DNA of 64,000 nucleotides from Alphaproteobacteria bacterium (GTDB taxonomy: Bacteria; Pseudomonadota; Alphaproteobacteria; Rhodospirillales; Casp-alpha2). Shown piece after piece: positions 2,874 through 61,898 of the stretch (positions within the stretch are counted from its first letter, which is position 1; every line of letters begins with the position of its first letter). The DNA lies in the NCBI GenBank assembly GCA_024279135.1, contig JAJRRU010000010.1, forward strand, positions 1-64,000, written 5' to 3'. The notes under the pieces were generated by a model. The model searched no databases. It was not told the DNA's origin and saw nothing but the letters and a program-made list of their open reading frames with translations. Made by a program: the position numbers and the translations under genes.

Positions 2874-5540
2874 TCATCGCAAGGGCGGAGCAAACTGAGC
2901 CCCACCGTTTCCCCAGCTCGCATTCAGGCGGGCCAACGTACTGTTGCTTGCGGTTTTATCTCGCAGGCTTTCTTCCAGAGACCCCACGGAACTCAGAATA
3001 TTTCCATACCATGTCTCCGATAAACCTAAATCCCTGCCCAATGTGGCTGAGCGTTTTTTAATTATATTTTGAAGAATTCGATTACCGCCAATTTCGTCCT
3101 GTACAGTACGAGCCAAAATCGACCACCTCACCAGGTTATTAAATTGATTATTCCCGCCACCGATAACAGGACCTTTGGGAATAACCTGATCGTCAACCAG
3201 ATCAACAAGGCTAACGACGGGTTGCACATAACCAGACAAACCGAGGAACGTGTCACGAGTAACCGGCGAGGCAATCATATGGATATTTCCGACTGCCAGG
3301 TCTCGCAGAAGATTTTCTAAACGACCATAAAATATTTTGGTCGCATTGCTTCGGCCAAACAATGCGGATGATACGGCTCCACATGTCTCCTGATCGAATG
3401 ACTGGCTTGCCGTTTCTGCATTAAATTTACTCACAAGGGCAGCATCGGGGTTGTTTACAATGCCACATCGTAATTGGCCGTGGCTGCGAATGGATTTAAT
3501 CGAAGGCGAGCCGGATGAGACAGGTATTTCAGAAAGTTGTATCTCCCCGAATCGATTTGCAATTAACAACCCTCCATTGCGAACCAGTGTGTTCAGTCCC
3601 CTGGGTATATGAACCCCATCTGGGCCAAAGTGTCGGGTATAAATATCCTCATAATTCCCGACCTGTTTAATGACGTTCGATAACCATTCGGGGCGCAAAC
3701 CCAATGCGATACCAATTTTTCGTGAAGCGGCAATCAAAGGATACGCTTTATTTATTGCAATATTTCGTTGGGTTATTCCTTTTTCTTCCGCAAGTAGAAG
3801 CCCGTCAAATACGGTTTGGACAAATGAACGCCACATATCGTCTCCCTGACGCACCATGGGCGACAATGGTTCTAATGTGAGACGTTCCGGCAGGATTATA
3901 TAATTTTCAGGGTTTTGCATGCCTTCCCGCATGGCCGCAAGCCCGCTGCCATCGGTGGATAGAATATCGCACCGGCCCGCTACAAATCCACGGGTTATCT
4001 CCGACCACGTGTCAAATATAACGGGGGCGAGCATCATGTCATGAGCCTGAAAATAATTTTCGAGATTCAATTGAGTTGTTGTACCCGACATCATACAGGC
4101 ACTCGCCCCATCCAGCTCTGTCGCACTTCGTACACCAAGGCTCCGTCGAACCATAATGGCCTGACCATCAATGAAATTTGGCCCGACAAAATCAAGCCCC
4201 AAGCGTGTATCGCGCGACATGGTCCACGAGGAATGACGAGCCAGGATATCAACCTCACCCGATTGCAAAGCCGTAAACCGCACTTTCGCAGAGAGCGGGG
4301 TAAATCTCACCTTTTCGGCATCGTTAAATATTGCCGTTGCTATGGCCCGGCAATAATCAACGTCCAGACCAGACCAAACCCCTCGTTGGTCCGTTGCCGA
4401 GAACCCGTGGACACCTGTACTGACCCCACATGATATATAGCCCTTGCGTATAACATTCTTAAATGTTCCGGTCTTGGGGCGTTTTCGCAGCTTGGCCACC
4501 ATGGGTGGAAGTGAGGTCGATGAAGGCGGTATTTTTATCTGATTGGAAGTCGTTTGCAGGCTAACAATCTTGTTTGAAGCGGGTTCTTTCAATTCCTGCA
4601 CCCTGGCTCGAGCTAGTGGAGCGAATGCGCCGTTGGGGTATTGTTCCAGATAGGCCTCAAACATCACGGCCTTGCCACTGTTTTGAATATTGCTCCAAAA
4701 CATCATTTCCGCTGACTGACCCGGTGCTGGAATTGCGGGCGTGGGTATTGGCACGCCTGTAGTTGTTTGTACGGTTGGTGTATTGCCTGGCTTGAAAAAA
4801 AAGTCGCCGCCAACTAAGGACGAGCTTTCCCACGGTGTTTGCTGATTACCTGTTTCGTTTCGAACGGAATTGCGTACTTCACGAAACATGCGCTCAACAG
4901 GCATGCCGGGCTGTTTCATCATCCTGCTAAGCGCTTTTGTGTACGGACTGTTTGCCCCATCGCCATCAGCGGCAACATCCCCCGGCCCCGTGGCGTAGGC
5001 GATCAGCGACCCCGTTGGAGCATCCATCTTGGCCAGCCCCCGCGTGGCGGAACGGAAGCTGCGCTTAAACGGATTATTCCGGCAAGCGTCCAGAATCACA
5101 AAGCTTAACCGTGCGCCGGAATACTCCATCATGGACATAACCGATTGGGTATTGATGGCTTCGATATCCACATCGCCCTCGGTCTCTATGGCGGCATCAA
5201 CAGGAATGATGTAATTTGCCCCCTTCACCTGCACGCCGTGCCCGGCATAGAAAAACAGGCCGACGCCGTCTTTGCCAGCGGCATCCAGCTTTTTACCAAA
5301 ACTTCGAATGGCAACCTTCATTTCCCGATGAGAAGCATCCAGGGTTTCAATAACTTCAAAGCCCAGGTCCTTCAGCGTACGAGCCATTAGCTTTGCGTCG
5401 TTCCTGGGATTTGGCAGAGGTGCGAATGCATAGGCGCTGTTGCCAATAACCAAGGCAACACGTTTCTCTGCCAAGGCAACACCAGAGGCTGCGATAACGC
5501 AGAATATGAACAAGATAGACAGGAAAAAAATACGTTTCAT
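2874..5540 (-). CDS. Exported caspase-like protease fused to amino-acid-binding-protein modules
   Basis: 888 residues. A cleavable signal peptide (residues 1-24, ending ALA) precedes a caspase-like C14 domain (about 26-250) with the catalytic His101 in YAGHGVQ and Cys153 in DACRNNPF, so the dyad is intact. A Pro/Thr-rich linker and a short module at 281-317 (FWSNIQNS ... YLEQYPNGAFAPLARARV) follow. Residues about 358-665 look like an AapJ-type amino-acid ABC substrate-binding protein (RKGYISCGVSTG, GLDVDYCRAIATAIF, DILARHSSWTMSRDTRLGLDF, GRCDILSTDGSGLAAM). Residues about 680-888 look like a second, more divergent SBP_bac_3 lobe (GQLRCGIV ...). Strong Shine-Dalgarno (GGGAGGTGAG before ATG). 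A ligand-gated periplasmic protease is an inference. The caspase half is a close paralogue of the protein at 53028-56192. Confidence 0.88.
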   Translation of the reverse strand: MKRIFFLSILFIFCVIAASGVALAEKRVALVIGNSAYAFAPLPNPRNDAKLMARTLKDLGFEVIETLDASHREMKVAIRSFGKKLDAAGKDGVGLFFYAGHGVQVKGANYIIPVDAAIETEGDVDIEAINTQSVMSMMEYSGARLSFVILDACRNNPFKRSFRSATRGLAKMDAPTGSLIAYATGPGDVAADGDGANSPYTKALSRMMKQPGMPVERMFREVRNSVRNETGNQQTPWESSSLVGGDFFFKPGNTPTVQTTTGVPIPTPAIPAPGQSAEMMFWSNIQNSGKAVMFEAYLEQYPNGAFAPLARARVQELKEPASNKIVSLQTTSNQIKIPPSSTSLPPMVAKLRKRPKTGTFKNVIRKGYISCGVSTGVHGFSATDQRGVWSGLDVDYCRAIATAIFNDAEKVRFTPLSAKVRFTALQSGEVDILARHSSWTMSRDTRLGLDFVGPNFIDGQAIMVRRSLGVRSATELDGASACMMSGTTTQLNLENYFQAHDMMLAPVIFDTWSEITRGFVAGRCDILSTDGSGLAAMREGMQNPENYIILPERLTLEPLSPMVRQGDDMWRSFVQTVFDGLLLAEEKGITQRNIAINKAYPLIAASRKIGIALGLRPEWLSNVIKQVGNYEDIYTRHFGPDGVHIPRGLNTLVRNGGLLIANRFGEIQLSEIPVSSGSPSIKSIRSHGQLRCGIVNNPDAALVSKFNAETASQSFDQETCGAVSSALFGRSNATKIFYGRLENLLRDLAVGNIHMIASPVTRDTFLGLSGYVQPVVSLVDLVDDQVIPKGPVIGGGNNQFNNLVRWSILARTVQDEIGGNRILQNIIKKRSATLGRDLGLSETWYGNILSSVGSLEESLRDKTASNSTLARLNASWGNGGAQFAPPLR

Positions 5541-5607: not shown

Positions 5608-7586
5608 TTAACCCTTTTCAATGATTTTCATGGGAAGTGTTACCGTCACTGTCGTTCCCTTATTGATTTCACTTTGGATATCCAGTTCTCCGTCAAGGGC
5701 ATTTACAAGTGCTTTCACGATGGATAGCCCCAACCCGGTTCCTTTTTGCGAGTGCTGTTGAACATCCGGCACTTGTATAAAAGGCTCTGTAACAATTTTC
5801 AGCATTCGACTATTAATGCCAATCCCTGAATCGGCGATAGAAAGATAAAACTTACCACCGTTCATTTTGGCAGAAATAATAATCTTGCCTTTTTCAGGGG
5901 TGAATTTAATAGCATTGGAAAGCAAGTTCAGCAAAATCTGATTGATGACTGTACCGTCAACATACAACGTGGGCAAATTGGCGATATATCTAAAACCAGA
6001 TTTTGCTTCTTTGTACGAACTTGAGGCTCAACCAGCCTTGCTGAGTAATTGATGAATTCAGCAATATTCAAAAGTGAGTATTCAAGAGAAAGTTTTCCCA
6101 CTTCAATTTTTGAAATATCAAGGACTTGATTTATTTGCTCGAGAAGATGCCGTCCGGCTGTATTTATCACAACTGAATATTCTTCATATTTTTCACTGCC
6201 CAGTTTACCATAAACGTGTTCGGACATCATTTCTGAAAATCCGATGATCGCGTTTAACGGTGTGCGGAATTCATGGCTCATGTTGGCAATAAATGCTGAT
6301 TTTGCCCGGTTTCCTTCCTCGGCGAGCTTTTTTGTATATTTCAGTTGGTTTTCATAGTTATGGCGTTCTGTCACATCGGTATAAACAATCGTATGACCTC
6401 CGCTTGGCATAGGGTACCGATACAAAGTAATATGGCGTCCATCGAGAAGGTTGAATGCATCCGAAGAATTTGCCCCTTCCTGCAATAATTCCTGAAATCG
6501 TTTTTCCGCTACATCAAAAGTATCTCCTAATCCCAATCCCCCCTGGCTCCCGATATGCCTTAACAGTTCCCGCTTACTCATACCCACCCGAATACCTTCA
6601 GGAACATACCAGAAGTCTTCGCACTTCGCGTTCCATGTCAAAAGCTGGTTTTGATCGTCCCAGGAGGCAATCCCCTGGTCCACTGAATCCAATGTGGATT
6701 TTAATAATTTTGAATTCTGAACCAGTAGATGACTAAACTTTTTTTCCCGACGTATGAAGATGAATATCATTATCGCCATCAATATAAAAACACCGACAAG
6801 TCCGGGGATCAGCACAGATAAAATACGCGTGCCGGGCAAATCCGGTTCCCAGACCAGAAAACCGATGGGTGATTTATCAGTATCGAAAAGAGGAACCGAG
6901 GCGATAACATTATTGTCCAGCGATCTCGTAATTCGCAGATTAGGAAGCAGATAATCTTCCGCCAACTCACCCAACAAATCGTCATCCAGCTTCCGGGTCA
7001 GCACCAATACGGACTCCGTTGCCTGATCAATTTCCTCGCCATCCTTGGTAAAATATGTTGTCAGCACGACAACGGCTGCCAGATAAACCCCATCAGTGTC
7101 TTGAAGCATACCCGTCGCAGGTTCTGGAGCCGCCGAAGGAGAACCTGAACGGGCCTTGGCAATCAGAATTTCTAGGCTGCCGGAGAAGCGCGTAAGCGGG
7201 TCATCGACAATGCGCTCGCCAAGCAGAGAACTGTAAACCAGTTGATTGTTCGCCCCTAATACGTAGCTGGATGAAATATTATAGGTTTCGACAAGATAGG
7301 GACCGATAGTTTCATCGGCCCATTCTAGATCAGGTTTTGTTACCAGTTTATCGACGGCTTGATCCCAATAACCATATTCAACCGTCAAATCTGAAAGGTG
7401 ACGCTGCATTGTTGCGATGGCTGCGTGGGCAAGATGAACGGATGCGTCTATGGCATTCCGGTTTTGTCCCTGGGTCGCGACAAAAACCAATCCGGAAATT
7501 GTCAGGATAATGAAAACCAGTACTGCCCAGAAAGGAACAGATAAATTCCTGAAGACCCCTTTAATATCGTCACCGCTATAATTCAT
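5608..7586 (-). pseudogene. CHASE4-PAS sensor histidine kinase interrupted by a -1 frameshift
   Basis: Membrane sensor kinase split over two frames. The first part (5928-7586) has a membrane helix (about 18-38), a CHASE4-like sensor with TVEYGYWDQAV, a second membrane helix (about 260-282), a PAS-7-type domain starting STLDSVDQGIASWD, and a HisKA dimerisation helix with the phospho-acceptor His in FIANMSHEFRTPLN. It then stops 19 codons after entering the wrong frame. The other frame (5608-5976) supplies the HATPase domain (NLLSNAIKFTP N-box, DSGIGI, GTGLGLSIV). Adding one A in the run near 5974-5981 would join them as DISPNLPTLYVDG. Either a recent inactivating deletion or an assembly error. 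It lies 67 bp upstream of, and in the same direction as, the caspase fusion gene. Confidence 0.85.
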
Positions 7587-53027: not shown

Positions 53028-56000
53028 TTGTACCGTCTGATTACCAATATCTTCTTTGTAATTCTAATGATCGCCCTGCCCAGTATGGCAGAGGCACAGA
53101 AGCGCATAGCCCTTGTGATTGGTAATGGAGAGTATGACAGCGTGGGAAATCTCTCCAATCCACCAAATGATGCACGGTTGATGGCCCGTACCCTGCGAGA
53201 CTTAAATTTTGAAGTAATAGAACAGATTGACGCCACACAGAAATCATTGAAACGGGCAGTTCGAAATTTTGGTAAATTAATTGAGACTGGTGGAGATGAT
53301 GCCATTGCGCTGTTTTACTATGCAGGTCACGGGGTGCAGGTCAAAGGTGCTAATTATATCATCCCGGTAGATGCCGAGATCGATAATGAAGGTGACGTTG
53401 ATATCGAAGCGATCGATATGAACGCTATTTTATCCTTGATGGAATACAGTGGTGCAGGGTTAAATTTTGTTATTCTTGATGCCTGTCGTAATAATCCGTT
53501 CTCGCGGGGTTTTCGGTCCGCTACACGAGGATTGGCAGAAATGAATGCTCCAACTGGTTCCTTTATTGCTTATGCCACTTCACCGGGAGATGTCGCTGCC
53601 GATGGTGATGGTGAAAATAGCCCTTATACCGAAGCATTGGCAAAAGCGATGCAGGAGCCGGGGGTATCAGTGGAACATATGTTTAAAAAAGTTCGAAATA
53701 CAGTTCGGCAAGCAACTAACAATGAACAAACGCCATGGGAAAGCTCTTCCATGATCGGCGGTAATTTTTATTTTAATCCATCTGTCACACTAACAGATCA
53801 AGAAATTGTACCAGCACCTCCCCCGCCGCAAAACACCCCGACTCCGGAAATTGTATTCTGGCAATCCATTCAGAACAGCCAAGTGGTGAGCGAATACGAG
53901 GCCTATCTGAGCAATTATCCAGAAGGAGATTTTGTTTCTTTAGCAAACAGTCGTATAGCGTCCCTGGAGCTTGATATTCCCGTCGTAAAACCCGCGCCAT
54001 CAAATAAATCGATTGCAGCAGACACATCAACAAATTCCGACACTGGGCTTGCGCAGGAGATTACTGACCCAGGTCGAGCTGTATTGATACTGGATGCGTC
54101 AGGCAGCATGTGGGGGCAGATAGATGGCAAGGCCAAGATTGAGATTGCCCGTGAAGCTATTATATCTTTAGTAACAGAAATGGGTGAGGACGTTCAATTG
54201 GGCCTGACGGCCTATGGTCACAACCGAAAAGGTGATTGTGGTGACATAGAAAATTTAATTTCCGCAGGGCCTGATACCGGTAAACAGATTGTTTCCATAA
54301 TCAACAATATAAAACCCAAGGGTAAAACGCCGCTATCAGAGGCCGTGCGCCAAACGGCTTATGAACTTAAATTCACAGAAGAAAAGGCCTCGGTAATCTT
54401 ACTCAGTGATGGCCTTGAAACCTGCAATGACGATCCTTGCGCTGTGGCGAGAGAGTTGGAGGAAAGTGGGGTCGACTTTGTCGTTCATGTTATTGGATTT
54501 GATCTAACACAGGAAGAACGTCAATCTTTGCAATGTATTGCTGATGAAACCGGAGGGCAATTCTTAGCTGCTGGTGACGCCCGCACCCTTGCTACGGCTC
54601 TTTTGACCGCGGTCAAGCAGGTTTCAATACCAACCGTAAGTGCCAATACTTATACCACAATTAGACCATACCTGACTGAATCTGGTGAGAGGCTTAACGG
54701 GCTCTTCCATTGGGCTCTTAAAAATGAAACTGGTGAAATAGTTCTGGAGCAAAGAGATTTCCATATCGTTGAAAAAGTTCCATCCGGAAAATACACCGTA
54801 ATCGCCTCGCAGTTAAACGCCCTGGGTGAAATGAAGATTGAGATTGATCAGAACGATCCGCAAAATCACAAGATTGAAATCAACGGTGGAACTCTTAATT
54901 TAAGGGCGCTCGGAGAAGATGGGGAAGCCTATGAGAATGAGGACTATATCTGGTGGACCCTTTTTACTCTCGATAAAAAAGGTAAACCAGCAAAAGAATA
55001 TTTAACTAAAGTTGACGGTATCAATGAGACTTTTCTTCTTGCTCCGGGAAAATATTTGGTAAGTGCAGAGGCCGGATTGATCGGGGGTAGTATGAAAGTG
55101 CAAGTCTATCCAGGGCAAGTAACAGATGCTCCCCTGATACTCACATCCGGACGTTTGATCCTGACGGCAATGGTAACTGAAGACGGCAAGAAATATGACG
55201 GTGGAGATTATGTGTGGTGGAGTGTTTTTCCCATAAATCAATCGGGGCAGGTCGCAAGAAAATATATTGCAAAAGATGATGGAGTTGTTGAGACCTTCGA
55301 TCTTGCACCAGGGCGCTATCAGGTGGTTGCCGAAGCAGGCGTTCTTGGTGCGCAACTGGAAGTCAATATAATTGCAAATGAAACTGTTGAGCAAATAGCA
55401 CTTCTTGAATCGGGCCGGCTTATTATGACGGGCCTCAGCACAGCAGGCGGAGAGAAATTCGATGGTGTCAATTATCTGTGGTGGTCAGTTTACCCCATAG
55501 ATGATCGAGGCAAGGTATCAAAAAAATACATCTCAAAAGAAGACGGTGTGGTTGAAGAATTTGATCTGGCGCCGGGGCGTTATCTTGTAAACGCAACCGC
55601 CGGTGAAATCGAAGCAGAAATTGAAGTCACGATTGTAGCCGGGGAAACCCTGGAGGTTTCCCTGCCTTTGGAAGCCGGCATTTTAACCATGACTGCACTG
55701 ACCGTCGAGGGAGGAGAAAAGTTCAAGGGACAAAATTATTTATGGTGGTCAATCTATCCGATAAATAATCAGGGTCAGGCTTCAAAGAAGTATATTGAAA
55801 AAGAAGATGGTTCAGTAGAAAGCTTTGACCTTCCACCTGGCCGATACCTTGCCGTGGCAGAGGCTGGCCCTCTGCATGCACAAACGGAAGTAACTGTTGT
55901 GGCCGGTGAAACAACAGAAAAATCCTTGAGTATGGAGGCTGCCTGGGTGGAATTTACGGCTTTGGGTGGTGATGGAAATAAATATGATGGTGGGGAGTAT

Positions 56001-56192
56001 GTATGGTGGAGCATTTTTCCCAAGGGTAAGAAAAAATATATAGATAAGGAAGATGGCGTCGTTGAAAGGTTTGATCTCAATACGGGAGACTACACAGTTA
56101 AGATTGAAGTTGGCGATGATATATTTGAATCAGAATTTTCAATTTCGGCAGGCGAGCGTAGACAAATTTCGGTAATCCTTGATGGTCTTTGA
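53028..56192 (+). CDS. Exported caspase - vWA - tandem-repeat protein
   Basis: 1054 residues. Signal peptide (1-23, ending AEA); caspase-like C14 domain (26-250) with His101 in YAGHGVQ and Cys153 in DACRNNPF, at the same positions as in the paralogue at 2874-5540. A Pro-rich linker and the short module 277-313 (FWQSIQNS ... YLSNYPEGDFVSLANSRI) follow. The von Willebrand A domain (about 348-530) has an intact MIDAS: D356, S358, S360, plus Thr434 and Asp461 (LLSDGLET). From about 535 to the end there are about six beta-rich repeats of ~88 residues. Probably periplasmic. Binding through vWA and repeats with proteolysis by the caspase is inference. Start preceded by GTAGGAGAG. Confidence 0.9.
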   Translation: MYRLITNIFFVILMIALPSMAEAQKRIALVIGNGEYDSVGNLSNPPNDARLMARTLRDLNFEVIEQIDATQKSLKRAVRNFGKLIETGGDDAIALFYYAGHGVQVKGANYIIPVDAEIDNEGDVDIEAIDMNAILSLMEYSGAGLNFVILDACRNNPFSRGFRSATRGLAEMNAPTGSFIAYATSPGDVAADGDGENSPYTEALAKAMQEPGVSVEHMFKKVRNTVRQATNNEQTPWESSSMIGGNFYFNPSVTLTDQEIVPAPPPPQNTPTPEIVFWQSIQNSQVVSEYEAYLSNYPEGDFVSLANSRIASLELDIPVVKPAPSNKSIAADTSTNSDTGLAQEITDPGRAVLILDASGSMWGQIDGKAKIEIAREAIISLVTEMGEDVQLGLTAYGHNRKGDCGDIENLISAGPDTGKQIVSIINNIKPKGKTPLSEAVRQTAYELKFTEEKASVILLSDGLETCNDDPCAVARELEESGVDFVVHVIGFDLTQEERQSLQCIADETGGQFLAAGDARTLATALLTAVKQVSIPTVSANTYTTIRPYLTESGERLNGLFHWALKNETGEIVLEQRDFHIVEKVPSGKYTVIASQLNALGEMKIEIDQNDPQNHKIEINGGTLNLRALGEDGEAYENEDYIWWTLFTLDKKGKPAKEYLTKVDGINETFLLAPGKYLVSAEAGLIGGSMKVQVYPGQVTDAPLILTSGRLILTAMVTEDGKKYDGGDYVWWSVFPINQSGQVARKYIAKDDGVVETFDLAPGRYQVVAEAGVLGAQLEVNIIANETVEQIALLESGRLIMTGLSTAGGEKFDGVNYLWWSVYPIDDRGKVSKKYISKEDGVVEEFDLAPGRYLVNATAGEIEAEIEVTIVAGETLEVSLPLEAGILTMTALTVEGGEKFKGQNYLWWSIYPINNQGQASKKYIEKEDGSVESFDLPPGRYLAVAEAGPLHAQTEVTVVAGETTEKSLSMEAAWVEFTALGGDGNKYDGGEYVWWSIFPKGKKKYIDKEDGVVERFDLNTGDYTVKIEVGDDIFESEFSISAGERRQISVILDGL
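54883..56189 (+). repeat. Five ~264-bp coding repeats in the caspase-vWA gene
   Basis: Repeat units begin near 54883, 55146, 55411, 55675 and 55938; the last is shorter. Each encodes a unit of the form GG..(K/A)Y.G.(N/D)Y.WWS..PI...G...KKYI.K.DGVVE.FDLAPGRY.V.AEAG. A more divergent sixth unit precedes them from about 54640. The WW pair and the APGRY motif are constant. Resembles carboxypeptidase-regulatory-like or prealbumin-like beta-sandwiches, which often mediate adhesion. Confidence 0.85.
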
Positions 56193-56317: not shown

Positions 56318-59300
56318 TTACGGGGCACCAACACCCCCTTCCCCGACGACGACAAACGGCGCCCAGAACATGGGGTGGGCATAGTGAGGATTTTTTGTAT
56401 CAGCCATCAAGGCGGCCATGGATCGTTTGAGCCCCTCGGCACGCCCGATCGTGTTATCGTTCGCGACCTCTTTCAGCATGACCGTGGTTAGCTTGACGGC
56501 AGCATTCGAACCCACTGGCCAATGCGAAACCAGCAACGACCGTGACCCAGCATAGAAGAACGCCTTAGCCAGACCCGATAGGGCTTCCGCCTCCGCTGAG
56601 CCATCGGCGGAGGCGGTGTTGCAGGCTGACAACACCACCATATCAGCGTTGAGGTTCAATTGTGCGACCTCGCTGGCGGTCAACAAGCCATCGTCTTGTG
56701 CAGTTCCTACTTTTGGCGGTGTCATCACCAAGGACGGTTCGGCTACGCCTTTAAGATCCCCAGAAATAAGCCCGTGGGTGGCGAAGGCCAGCACCCGATA
56801 GCTGTCCAGGTCAAGGCTCTTAACTTTGGTTTCGGTGGCGTTCTCACGCAAATACAGGTCGGCCTTGCTGGCACCCAGAATTTTGGCCATGGCTTCCAAC
56901 TCATCGGCCGTTTCAGGAAGCGGCGCCAGTCGGGTGCGAATGGCATCAACATCCGCAATGCCGCGGGCCGTGAACAGATTTGACAGTTGCACTCCACGGC
57001 TTTCGCCAGGGTGCCCCTGTAGCAAAGGATCACCAATGCCGAAAAAAGGTTTTTTGGCGCGAGTCGTTTTGGCGAAGCGGCGAAGAGCGCGCAAGGACGA
57101 AACAGAAGGCAACGTGGTCATGGCATACTTTTGGGTTAACCAAGGAACTGTGCGATAGCTGGAAAAATTATCTATATTATCGGGCGTTTTCCTGGTAACG
57201 AGGACGCCTAAGGGTAGGCTTTGCAATGGACCGTCGGGCACGACAATCACGTGCTGAGCCCCTGCAAGTACGGGCTCCGCCGCGGCAAAGATCTGGCGAT
57301 ACAGCGCCAGCGCCTTGACCGTATCAAAGGGCGGTATGTCGGCAAGACTGCGCATCCCTGTTGGGTCAAGTCCGCCTCGCAAAGCCTCGATGATCTTGCT
57401 CAAATCGACACGACCAATTTCGAATTTAAATACGCGGGCCTGGTCCCGACGCACCGCCCATAAAAATGTGCTTTTCTGGCCAACAACATAGGTCAGCAAA
57501 GCTTCATCCGGTTCCAATAGCTGTTGAATCTCGGACAGGCTCGTGGGCTCAGATAACGTCAGTTCGGCGTATTCTGGAAAATTGCTGCTCAGTTTGCTGT
57601 CAAGGTTCTTAAGGGTCTGGTCCAGCCTGGTCAGTTGATCGCGGATGTCCTGCGCCGCGGCTTCATCACGTTTGCCTGCTGGTTTGCTAATGGTTTTGAT
57701 GAGCCTTTCATCTAACATCTTCCACAAATCCGCAGCATCCTGTCGTTCCCGCACGACCTGGGACAAAGCGTCGTTGGTCGTGGAAAAACGAGCGCTCATG
57801 CCGGCAATTGCCGCGCCGGTGCTGGTTACTTTCGCCAATTGTCCGACTTCAAAGGTTTCAGCCGTTAAGCCGGGTTGCCTCATGGGTTGCTGCTCACCAA
57901 CCCAATAGCCGCTTTCGATATGATTGACAAAAACATAGCGGATTAATTTTTGTTCACTCGTGCCACCACTCGATCGTTGTCCTGCTGACTGCATCGTGCG
58001 CTTGCGGTGAATACTGCTGGCTCTTTGCGAATATTTCAGCGCCTCCTCATAGCGGTCTATGCTCTGATATAAATTAGCCATACTGTTGAGGGTTCTGGCG
58101 ACACTTGGGTGATCCGTTCCCATTGCTTTTTCCCGGATTGCCAGAACGCGCAGGTAGAGCGGTTCGGCATCATCATAACGGTCTTGCTTGACATACAAAT
58201 TGGCGAGACCGCTGAAGCTCGAGGCAACATCTGGATGTTCTGCCCCCAGACCCTTCTCTCGGATGTTCAGGGCGCGTCTGAACAGGGGTTCAGCATCGGT
58301 GTAGCGTTTTTGCTTTACGTAAAGATCGGCCAGACGACTTAAGCTCGAGGCAACACGGGGGTGCTCTTGTCCGAGAGCCTTCTCCCGGATCGTGAGAGCC
58401 TGCTTTTCGTAACGTTCGGAATCAGCATAGCGACCCTGTCTAAAATATACTTTGGCCAAGCTTCCGAGGCTCGTGGCGACCCTGGGGTGCTCTGGCCCCA
58501 GGGCCTTCTCCAGGATTTCCAGACCGCGCTTATGGAGCAGTTCACCATCCGTATAACGGCCCTGCCTATCGTATAGCTTTGCCAGATTATTCATCACCGT
58601 TGCGACATCCGGGTGGTCCGGTCCGAGGGCTTTTTCGCGGATCGCCAAGGCGCGCCTGAGGAGGGCTTCGGCATCAGCGTAATCGCCCTGCCCCAAGGTC
58701 ACGGCAGCGGCCAGATTGCTCAGCGACGTGGCGACAGCCCGGTGGTTTGCCCCCAGGGCTTTCTCGCGGATGGCCAGGGCGCGCCTGAGAAGGGGTTCCG
58801 CATCGTCGTAACGACCTTGGTGCAAGTGTACAGTGGCCAGATTGTTGAGGCTCGTCGCAACCCGCCGGTGTTGACGTCCGAGATTTTTTTCTTTGATGGC
58901 AAGGGCCCGCTTATGTAAAGCCTCGGCATCATTGTAGCGGCCCTGGTCTTCATACAAATGGGCTAGATTGTTGAGGTTTGCAGCAATTTTAATGTGCTCA
59001 GGCCCATTGGCATTTTCTTCGATGGCAAGAGCACGCTTGTAAGTGGTTTCAGCTTCGTCATAACGACCTTGACTATGATAGATACCAGCCAGATTATTCG
59101 TATAGGCCCCGGTCATATCGTGCTTAGGTCCATGGACAAACTTGCTCAGTTCCACGGCTTTCTCAGCGAAAGGCTCTGCCTCATCGTATCGGCCTTGTTT
59201 ATTAAGCTTTTTGTATTCCTTAAATACCTTGGTTAATTCCATTGATTTGGGAACTTGGACGCAGCCTGAAAGCAGAATAAGAACACAGGCACAGGCGATA

Positions 59301-59320
59301 AATCTATATAGATACTTCAT
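56318..59320 (-). CDS. TPR-CHAT lipoprotein
   Basis: 1000 residues. Lipoprotein signal peptide with lipobox LLSGC (Cys20). About nine to ten 42-residue kinesin-light-chain-type TPRs (RYDEAEPL..RALAIREKALGPEHP pattern) cover roughly 35-440. A helical linker and a C-terminal CHAT domain (about 690-995) follow, with catalytic His849 in AFATHGL and Cys900 in VVLSACNTA, then SRSLLVSHWPVGSNAA. CHAT is a caspase-fold (clan CD) protease family; TPR-CHAT proteins act in type III-E CRISPR and other conflict systems, but those are cytoplasmic and this one is lipid-anchored. The start at 59320 is chosen because it gives the lipoprotein signal; the frame opens 60 bp earlier. Confidence 0.92.
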   Translation of the reverse strand: MKYLYRFIACACVLILLSGCVQVPKSMELTKVFKEYKKLNKQGRYDEAEPFAEKAVELSKFVHGPKHDMTGAYTNNLAGIYHSQGRYDEAETTYKRALAIEENANGPEHIKIAANLNNLAHLYEDQGRYNDAEALHKRALAIKEKNLGRQHRRVATSLNNLATVHLHQGRYDDAEPLLRRALAIREKALGANHRAVATSLSNLAAAVTLGQGDYADAEALLRRALAIREKALGPDHPDVATVMNNLAKLYDRQGRYTDGELLHKRGLEILEKALGPEHPRVATSLGSLAKVYFRQGRYADSERYEKQALTIREKALGQEHPRVASSLSRLADLYVKQKRYTDAEPLFRRALNIREKGLGAEHPDVASSFSGLANLYVKQDRYDDAEPLYLRVLAIREKAMGTDHPSVARTLNSMANLYQSIDRYEEALKYSQRASSIHRKRTMQSAGQRSSGGTSEQKLIRYVFVNHIESGYWVGEQQPMRQPGLTAETFEVGQLAKVTSTGAAIAGMSARFSTTNDALSQVVRERQDAADLWKMLDERLIKTISKPAGKRDEAAAQDIRDQLTRLDQTLKNLDSKLSSNFPEYAELTLSEPTSLSEIQQLLEPDEALLTYVVGQKSTFLWAVRRDQARVFKFEIGRVDLSKIIEALRGGLDPTGMRSLADIPPFDTVKALALYRQIFAAAEPVLAGAQHVIVVPDGPLQSLPLGVLVTRKTPDNIDNFSSYRTVPWLTQKYAMTTLPSVSSLRALRRFAKTTRAKKPFFGIGDPLLQGHPGESRGVQLSNLFTARGIADVDAIRTRLAPLPETADELEAMAKILGASKADLYLRENATETKVKSLDLDSYRVLAFATHGLISGDLKGVAEPSLVMTPPKVGTAQDDGLLTASEVAQLNLNADMVVLSACNTASADGSAEAEALSGLAKAFFYAGSRSLLVSHWPVGSNAAVKLTTVMLKEVANDNTIGRAEGLKRSMAALMADTKNPHYAHPMFWAPFVVVGEGGVGAP

Positions 59321-59566
59321 AATCGCAATCACTCCCAAACTGCCACCCCAAGTTTGATATTGAAGCAGGTAGTATATCACAAACCTACCCTCACTTGATA
59401 CGACTATAGAATATTAGCTGTGTCTTGTGCTGGCTGAGGCTGGTTCATTTGTCGTTTGAAGCTCTGTATCATTGCGTTGAGCAGGCAGCATTCAGACTCC
59501 AACGGACACGGATTTCCGTCGCGTTTTTATACAGCCTGGGACCGAAGCGGATATTTCGCCTCGTAA

Positions 59567-60857: not shown

Positions 60858-61898
60858 TTACTTAACGGAGATGTCCCACAGTTTAAGTGTTTTGTCCCAG
60901 CTCCCGGAAAGAGCGAAGCGGCCATCGGGAGAAAACACGACGGTATAGACAGATCTTGAATGCCCCTTGAAGGTGAGCAACTCAAGGCCTGTTTTGACAT
61001 CCCACAGTTTAAGGGTGAAGTGGCTACCTCCGGAAAGAGCGAAGTGGCCATCGGGTGAAAACGCGACGGAATTGACATAATTTGAATGGCCTTTGAAGGA
61101 GCGCAATTCATGACCGGTTTTGACATCCCACAGTCTAAGGGTGTAGTCGTCGCTTCCGGAAAGGGCGAAGCGACCGTCGGGTGAAAACGCGACGGAATTG
61201 ACATCATCTGAATGGCCTTTGAAGGATTGCAACTCACGGCCGCTTTTGACATCCCACAGTCTAAGAGTGTCGTCCCGGCTCCCGGAAAGAGCGAAACGGC
61301 CATCGGGTGAAAACGCGACGGAATAGACAGCATCTGAATGGCCTTTGAAGGATTGCAACTCACGACCGTTTTTGACATCCCACAGTCTAAGGGTGTGGTC
61401 GTTGCCTCCGGAAAGAGCGAAGCGGCCATCGGGTGAAAACGCGACGGAATTGACAGTATCTGAATGGCCTTTGAAGGATTGCCACTCATGGCCGGTTTTG
61501 ACATCCCACAGTCTAAGGGTGTCGTCCCGGCTCCCGGAAAGAGCGAAGCGGCCATCGGGCGAAAATGTGACGGAAATGACATCATCTGAATGGCCTTTAA
61601 AGGTGCGGATGGAGCTGTCCATCATAAAGACGAATAGGGTGTCTTTGTTGGCCACAAAAAAGATCAGCACAGAAATCATCAATAAGAACGAACCTAATAC
61701 CCACGACATTATCCGCTGAGATGATTCGTCGTCCTCCAGTGCCCTTTGCAGGCGGCGAGCTTCTGTTGCGTGTGCTCCGGTCGGCCAGTCTTTCAGAAAG
61801 GCCTTGAATGTGTTTGCATCAGTGCTGTCCATTGTCGCATTCCATCTTACATCTTCAAGACGTATACGTTCGGCTTTTGCTCTGGCTTTTTTTCTCAT
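60858..61898 (-). CDS. Membrane-anchored WD40-repeat protein
   Basis: 346 residues. Basic N-terminus, the short module at 18-54 (RWNATMDS ... FLKDWPTGAHATEARRL) also found in both caspases, one membrane helix (about 64-83, MSWVLGSFLLMISVLIFFVA), then six 42-residue WD40 repeats with SFKGHSD.V.SVAFSPDGRF and LRLWDVK. The repeats form a propeller most likely outside the membrane or facing the cytoplasm depending on topology; the basic N-terminus suggests the propeller is periplasmic. A scaffold or sensor role is inferred. Six blades rather than seven, unless blades are shared between molecules. Confidence 0.9.
   Translation of the reverse strand: MRKKARAKAERIRLEDVRWNATMDSTDANTFKAFLKDWPTGAHATEARRLQRALEDDESSQRIMSWVLGSFLLMISVLIFFVANKDTLFVFMMDSSIRTFKGHSDDVISVTFSPDGRFALSGSRDDTLRLWDVKTGHEWQSFKGHSDTVNSVAFSPDGRFALSGGNDHTLRLWDVKNGRELQSFKGHSDAVYSVAFSPDGRFALSGSRDDTLRLWDVKSGRELQSFKGHSDDVNSVAFSPDGRFALSGSDDYTLRLWDVKTGHELRSFKGHSNYVNSVAFSPDGHFALSGGSHFTLKLWDVKTGLELLTFKGHSRSVYTVVFSPDGRFALSGSWDKTLKLWDISVK
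60870..61612 (-). repeat. Six near-identical 126-bp WD40-coding repeats
   Basis: Period 126 bp; blocks such as GGAAAGAGCGAAGCGGCCAT and GGTGAAAACGCGACGGAATT recur almost unchanged through the array. The similarity is much higher at DNA level than selection on the protein requires, so the array is recently amplified or homogenised and prone to copy-number change. Confidence 0.88.

Follow-up and report, generated by a model that had tools for sequence, protein, structure and literature searches.

A predicted exported caspase with a tail of AapJ-type receptor modules in an alphaproteobacterium

The activators and sensed inputs of bacterial caspases outside the cytoplasm are, to our knowledge, largely unknown. 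One gene in the 64,000-nucleotide stretch of alphaproteobacterial DNA analysed here (the window) bears on this point. A preliminary description had made out an exported caspase followed by two amino-acid-binding-protein modules and had proposed either a response to an extracellular amino acid or anchoring to a transporter. A caspase bearing a recognisable small-molecule receptor would have a defined candidate input. The gene and its parts lie in the window as follows.

2874-5540, minus strand: whole gene, exported caspase/binding-protein fusion of 888 aa (stop-free open reading frame)
5469-5540, minus strand: predicted signal peptide, residues 1-24 (KR n-region, hydrophobic core, ending ...VALA ahead of E; read from the sequence)
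4815-5465, minus strand: caspase (Peptidase_C14) domain, residues 26-242 (PF00656, E 7.1e-43)
4575-4709, minus strand: hinge motif FWxxIxxS...FEAYLxxYPxGxFAPLAR, residues 278-322 (alignments and pattern search)
4470-4574, minus strand: linker with the basic stretch RKRPK, residues 323-357 (sequence)
3558-4469, minus strand: binding module 1, complete two-lobed AapJ-type solute-binding protein, residues 358-661 (PF00497, 4z9n, AlphaFold2/Foldseek)
2877-3527, minus strand: binding module 2, AapJ homologue without lobe 2, residues 672-888 (profile, alignment, model)

The gene comprises 888 codons on the minus strand, from an ATG at 5540 to a stop at 2874, with no internal stops and a putative ribosome-binding site, GGGAGGTGAG, immediately 5' of the ATG. 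The 888-residue single chain of the preliminary description, which gave no strand, is thus confirmed as one uninterrupted open reading frame. It encodes, in order, a signal peptide, a caspase domain, a linker, a complete AapJ-type module and an AapJ-derived module lacking lobe 2. Residues 1-24 read as a predicted Sec signal peptide. The mature chain holds seven cysteines, namely the catalytic C153 and three AapJ-type pairs assigned by homology (371/397, 482/524 and 692/720). A free catalytic thiol alongside three predicted disulfides is consistent with an exported protein in an oxidising compartment, so the cysteine pattern agrees with the export that had been proposed.

Domain searches, a check suggested for the preliminary description, matched both PF00656 and PF00497 (SBP_bac_3). 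The PF00656 match spans profile positions 1-228 of 233, a complete caspase fold by profile, and the catalytic dyad is intact and exactly where it had been placed, with His101 in YAGHGVQ (codon 5238-5240) and Cys153 in LDACRNN (codon 5082-5084). The N-terminal half is thus predicted to be an orthocaspase-type cysteine protease. The linker that follows the hinge returned no homologue when homology was sought for residues 323-357, and its RKRPK stretch is a possible candidate for self-cleavage. An anti-phage defence role was considered and found weakly supported: a defence-caspase model matched partially (E 5e-9, 130 of 453 positions), the protein appears exported, and no defence genes were recognised beside the fusion gene among those neighbours scanned.

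The same genome encodes at least eight caspases of this subfamily, the fusion included, with differing tails. The caspase domains of its sisters share 44-61% identity with that of the fusion. The tails of the sisters, at least seven in number, comprise Sel1 repeats (twice), vWA with carboxypeptidase-regulatory-like repeats, FGE-sulfatase and three that Pfam does not name. A further, more distant caspase in the genome is a probable lipoprotein. One of the sisters lies in the window.

53028-56192, plus strand: sister exported caspase, 1054 aa, with vWA and several carboxypeptidase-regulatory-like repeats

The hinge motif, for which Pfam has no model, is common to the fusion and its sisters; in the form FWxxIxxS...FEAYLxxYPxGxF it follows the caspase domain in nearly all of them and occurs in the window at 53859-53927. 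By eye, a hinge-like stretch also precedes a WD40 protein at window 60858-61898. Directly adjoining the sister caspase is a TPR-rich protein with a CHAT domain (window 56318-59380, minus strand); the CHAT domain is another caspase-clan protease.

The receptor half begins with a complete binding protein. Pfam placed SBP_bac_3 at residues 369-579 (E 8.8e-12), and the best PDB match to residues 358-658 was the AapJ-like 4z9n (phmmer, E 1.8e-88), whose entry title names bound glutathione. An AlphaFold2 prediction, which covered the receptor half, matched module 1 to the same structure (Foldseek E 6e-35, TMt 0.87). NCBIfam amino-acid-binding-protein models also matched the second half of the fusion, with scores under their curated cut-offs. 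An AapJ-like binding protein does therefore follow the caspase, and the fold whose absence after residue 350 would have told against the preliminary description was found at residues 358-661. A comparison of 27 AapJ homologues showed no variation at R443 and almost none at T488 and D530. The fusion retains all three, which we take to be ligand contacts from established knowledge of the family, together with the four lobe cysteines that are likewise invariant or nearly so in AapJ. Other pocket positions are substituted, with H436 for the usual Asn and S438 for the usual Thr.

The second module had been described as another binding lobe, and that part of the claim stood: it is homologous to AapJ. 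Its completeness did not stand. Pfam did not detect residues 672-888, and a profile built from residues 656-888 and the sole tandem relative (below) matched one PDB protein, again 4z9n (E 1.6e-15). BLAST of residues 788-888 against AapJ C-termini in a local set gave E values of about 1e-11 to 5e-14. Aligned with complete AapJ, module 2 retains lobe 1 and the C-terminal tail but is short of about 95 residues, which correspond to lobe 2 including its cysteine pair. The AlphaFold2 model of module 2 (pLDDT 71, pTM 0.77) superimposed on 4z9n over 194 residues (VIA Z 19.9, rmsd 2.8). AapJ rows were in the alignment used to build it, so it does not count as evidence independent of the sequence comparisons. 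Its fold matches included MltF structures and the isolated domain 1 of the Thermotoga maritima arginine-binding protein (TmArgBP), a single lobe that binds arginine at about 3 uM (PMC7589609). By homology, module 2 is half a receptor with one lobe remaining.

A survey of the architecture, also proposed for the preliminary description, found the caspase fusion in one genome of about 1,050 searched. It was absent from the one other genome of the genus and from the 48 genomes of the family. A scan of 317 genomes of the order yielded a single protein matching residues 357-888 (39% identity), encoded in a genome of another family (G171). This stand-alone protein of 558 residues has a lipoprotein signal (LSGC) and lacks a caspase. 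Profile searches of these 317 genomes and 385 genomes of the class recovered complete copies of module 2 in the fusion and the G171 protein only, and a search around G171 found no further ones. Full-length searches of 398 phylum genomes, of plasmids and of GTDB contigs from 84,980 species retrieved no other fusion. The order and phylum scans scored two candidates per genome with the full protein and the GTDB contig scan required exact short peptides, so a fusion from distant subfamilies could escape detection. Judged by match length, a scan of viral contigs retrieved single AapJ-like regions only. The AapJ-like coding sequences in IMG/VR contigs that are classed as viral (L117-L128) may genuinely belong to viruses or derive from a host. 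Some GC-rich genomes carry long open frames around AapJ; in the case checked (L111), AapJ is a separate 375-residue protein.

In a tree, module 1 and its G171 counterpart formed a clade with support of 100/100 outside the transporter AapJs, with a long branch for G171, and the shared module 2 supports their kinship independently. The G171 protein keeps R443 and D530 and has Met for T488 and Thr for G486. Judged from these relationships, the tandem receptor unit probably came first and was then fused, in this lineage, with one caspase of an expanded exported group. Loss of the caspase in G171 would be a less simple history, since the protein there carries a lipoprotein signal itself. That a one-lobe receptor is still recognisable in two bacterial families suggests that the half receptor has been kept for a purpose.

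The reading with most support is that the locus encodes an exported protease bearing a receptor tail. We tentatively prefer the form of it in which the tail of this orthocaspase-type protein makes cleavage dependent on a ligand, a control that we infer. Module 1 would close around its ligand, an amino acid or a small peptide, in the periplasm, the closure would be transmitted through module 2 and the hinge to the caspase, and caspase access or activity would change so that cleavage of envelope proteins depended on the ligand. Having one lobe, module 2 could not grip a ligand from both sides and would most likely act as a packing, dimerisation or hinge element. On this evidence the response to an extracellular amino acid that had been suggested at the outset is plausible. 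A precedent is the exported enzyme MltF, in which an N-terminal regulatory domain switches activity on when muropeptides bind (PMC10746161), and by analogy an amino acid or small peptide most likely either elicits a response from the protease or sets its position. The more specific proposal, that this is a natural ligand-gated caspase switched allosterically through a full Venus-flytrap module and a one-lobe module of the same receptor family, is rather doubtful. Two points weigh against ligand control in either form: the G171 relative lacks T488 and G486, so ligand binding may not be the conserved feature, and the occurrence of the fusion in a single genome offers no measure of selection for the combination.

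Alternatively, the receptor part may be for targeting and only place a constitutive or self-activated caspase beside a permease, a kinase or a peptide-bearing substrate. Sister caspases with the same N-terminal half carry Sel1, vWA, FGE-sulfatase or unrelated tails, as would suit a role in placement. A survey of caspases listed 71 domain types in 112 architectures, dominated by interaction domains, with repeats such as WD40, TPR and Sel1 the commonest tails (PMC3501461), so the tail of the fusion may likewise merely recruit. However, the conserved small-molecule pocket of module 1 would be needless for pure docking, and there is no nearby permease gene. We regard pure targeting as on the unlikely side, and ligand control is slightly favoured over it because the pocket is preserved. 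Anchoring to a transporter, the other suggestion of the preliminary description, has lost ground. No permease genes adjoin either the fusion gene or the G171 tandem gene, elsewhere in the same genome lies a complete aapJQMP operon, the AapJ of which shares 40-42% identity with module 1, and module 1 falls outside the clade of transporter AapJs.

The neighbouring gene offers a second alternative, in which the receptor part is the input to a histidine kinase and the caspase modulates or clears the signal.

5608-7586, minus strand: histidine kinase with CHASE4-PAS_7-HisKA, followed by HATPase_c in another frame (Pfam, sequence)

This kinase gene lies upstream of the fusion gene in the same direction and ends about 68 bp before it. 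No promoter or terminator stood out from chance in the interval, and the kinase is possibly an operon partner. Separate binding proteins serve some kinases. Both tandem proteins adjoin a co-directional histidine kinase gene, as a gene for a MASE1-CHASE kinase follows the G171 tandem gene after about 130 bp. In a further genome (G016; L112, 2691-4217 and upstream of 2686, minus strand), only a few bases separate a divergent AapJ-like gene from the gene for a PAS/HisKA/HATPase/receiver kinase downstream of it, possibly as a receptor-kinase pair. Sensing by kinases through tandem Venus-flytrap modules is also known in BvgS (PMC4352136). However, the sensor domains differ (CHASE4 here, MASE1-CHASE in G171), and relatives of the CHASE4 kinase within the family are beside neither binding proteins nor caspases. 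The three kinases are unalike and the linkage is not conserved in the family, so the adjacency is only a hint. Moreover, the kinase beside the fusion is frameshifted between HisKA and HATPase_c (open reading frames 5928-7586 and 5608-5976), either a real disruption or an assembly error. We consider a kinase input improbable.

A recent in-frame fusion that has no joint function, or is decaying, would fit the occurrence in one of about 1,050 genomes and the frameshift in the neighbouring kinase. We strongly doubt such an accident, as the dyad, the pocket residues and all disulfide cysteines are intact across 888 stop-free codons. A chimera of two genes created by assembly, which the occurrence in one assembly only would suit, is highly improbable given a single open reading frame on a 495 kb contig, an in-frame junction from which the receptor's own signal peptide is neatly missing, a downstream gene whose closest matches are in the same family, and a codon composition that shows no chimera-like pattern at the junction, where GC3 alternates without a single step (kinase 0.445, caspase 0.576, modules 0.467 and 0.436, next gene 0.594).

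Several known systems resemble parts of the exported protease with its receptor tail. Multidomain alphaproteobacterial orthocaspases (Peptidase_C14) likewise have an intact H/C dyad, are often exported and vary in their C-terminal domains (PMC3501461, PMC6426788, PMC3355149); their known tails include Sel1, FGE-sulfatase, vWA and YARHG, whereas that of the fusion is SBP_bac_3/AapJ. We found no report of a caspase with an SBP_bac_3/AapJ module in the literature searched. A related case, listed in two surveys (PMC4933709 Table 1, PMC8283722), is a single, uncharacterised cyanobacterial caspase with a PBP_like_2 domain. It also joins a caspase to a periplasmic-binding-protein-like domain, but one of another binding-protein family, and neither a tandem nor the loss of a lobe was reported for it. 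Another combination of enzyme and binding protein was seen in G032, in which a 738-residue protein (L113, 3516-5732, plus strand) joins a divergent AapJ-like domain and a DUF900 alpha/beta hydrolase.

AapJ itself, the general L-amino-acid ABC receptor, is homologous to module 1 over its full length and to module 2 except for lobe 2. The fusion differs from it in having a protease attached, in its lack of linkage to permease genes and in belonging to a tandem clade outside the transporter AapJs. MltF shares the pairing of an exported enzyme with a regulatory domain of SBP_bac_3 fold, but its catalytic part is a lytic transglycosylase and its regulatory domain is single and N-terminal. BvgS and EvgS have two tandem modules of this fold outside the membrane (PMC4352136), which head a histidine kinase, whereas the fusion chain has neither a kinase nor a transmembrane anchor. 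The isolated domain 1 of TmArgBP is a single lobe like module 2, though an engineered fragment rather than a natural tandem partner. Multidomain orthocaspases were thus already known, and what appears to be new is an AapJ-type receptor tail on a caspase, a combination which suggests that a small extracellular nutrient molecule may steer or switch the protease.
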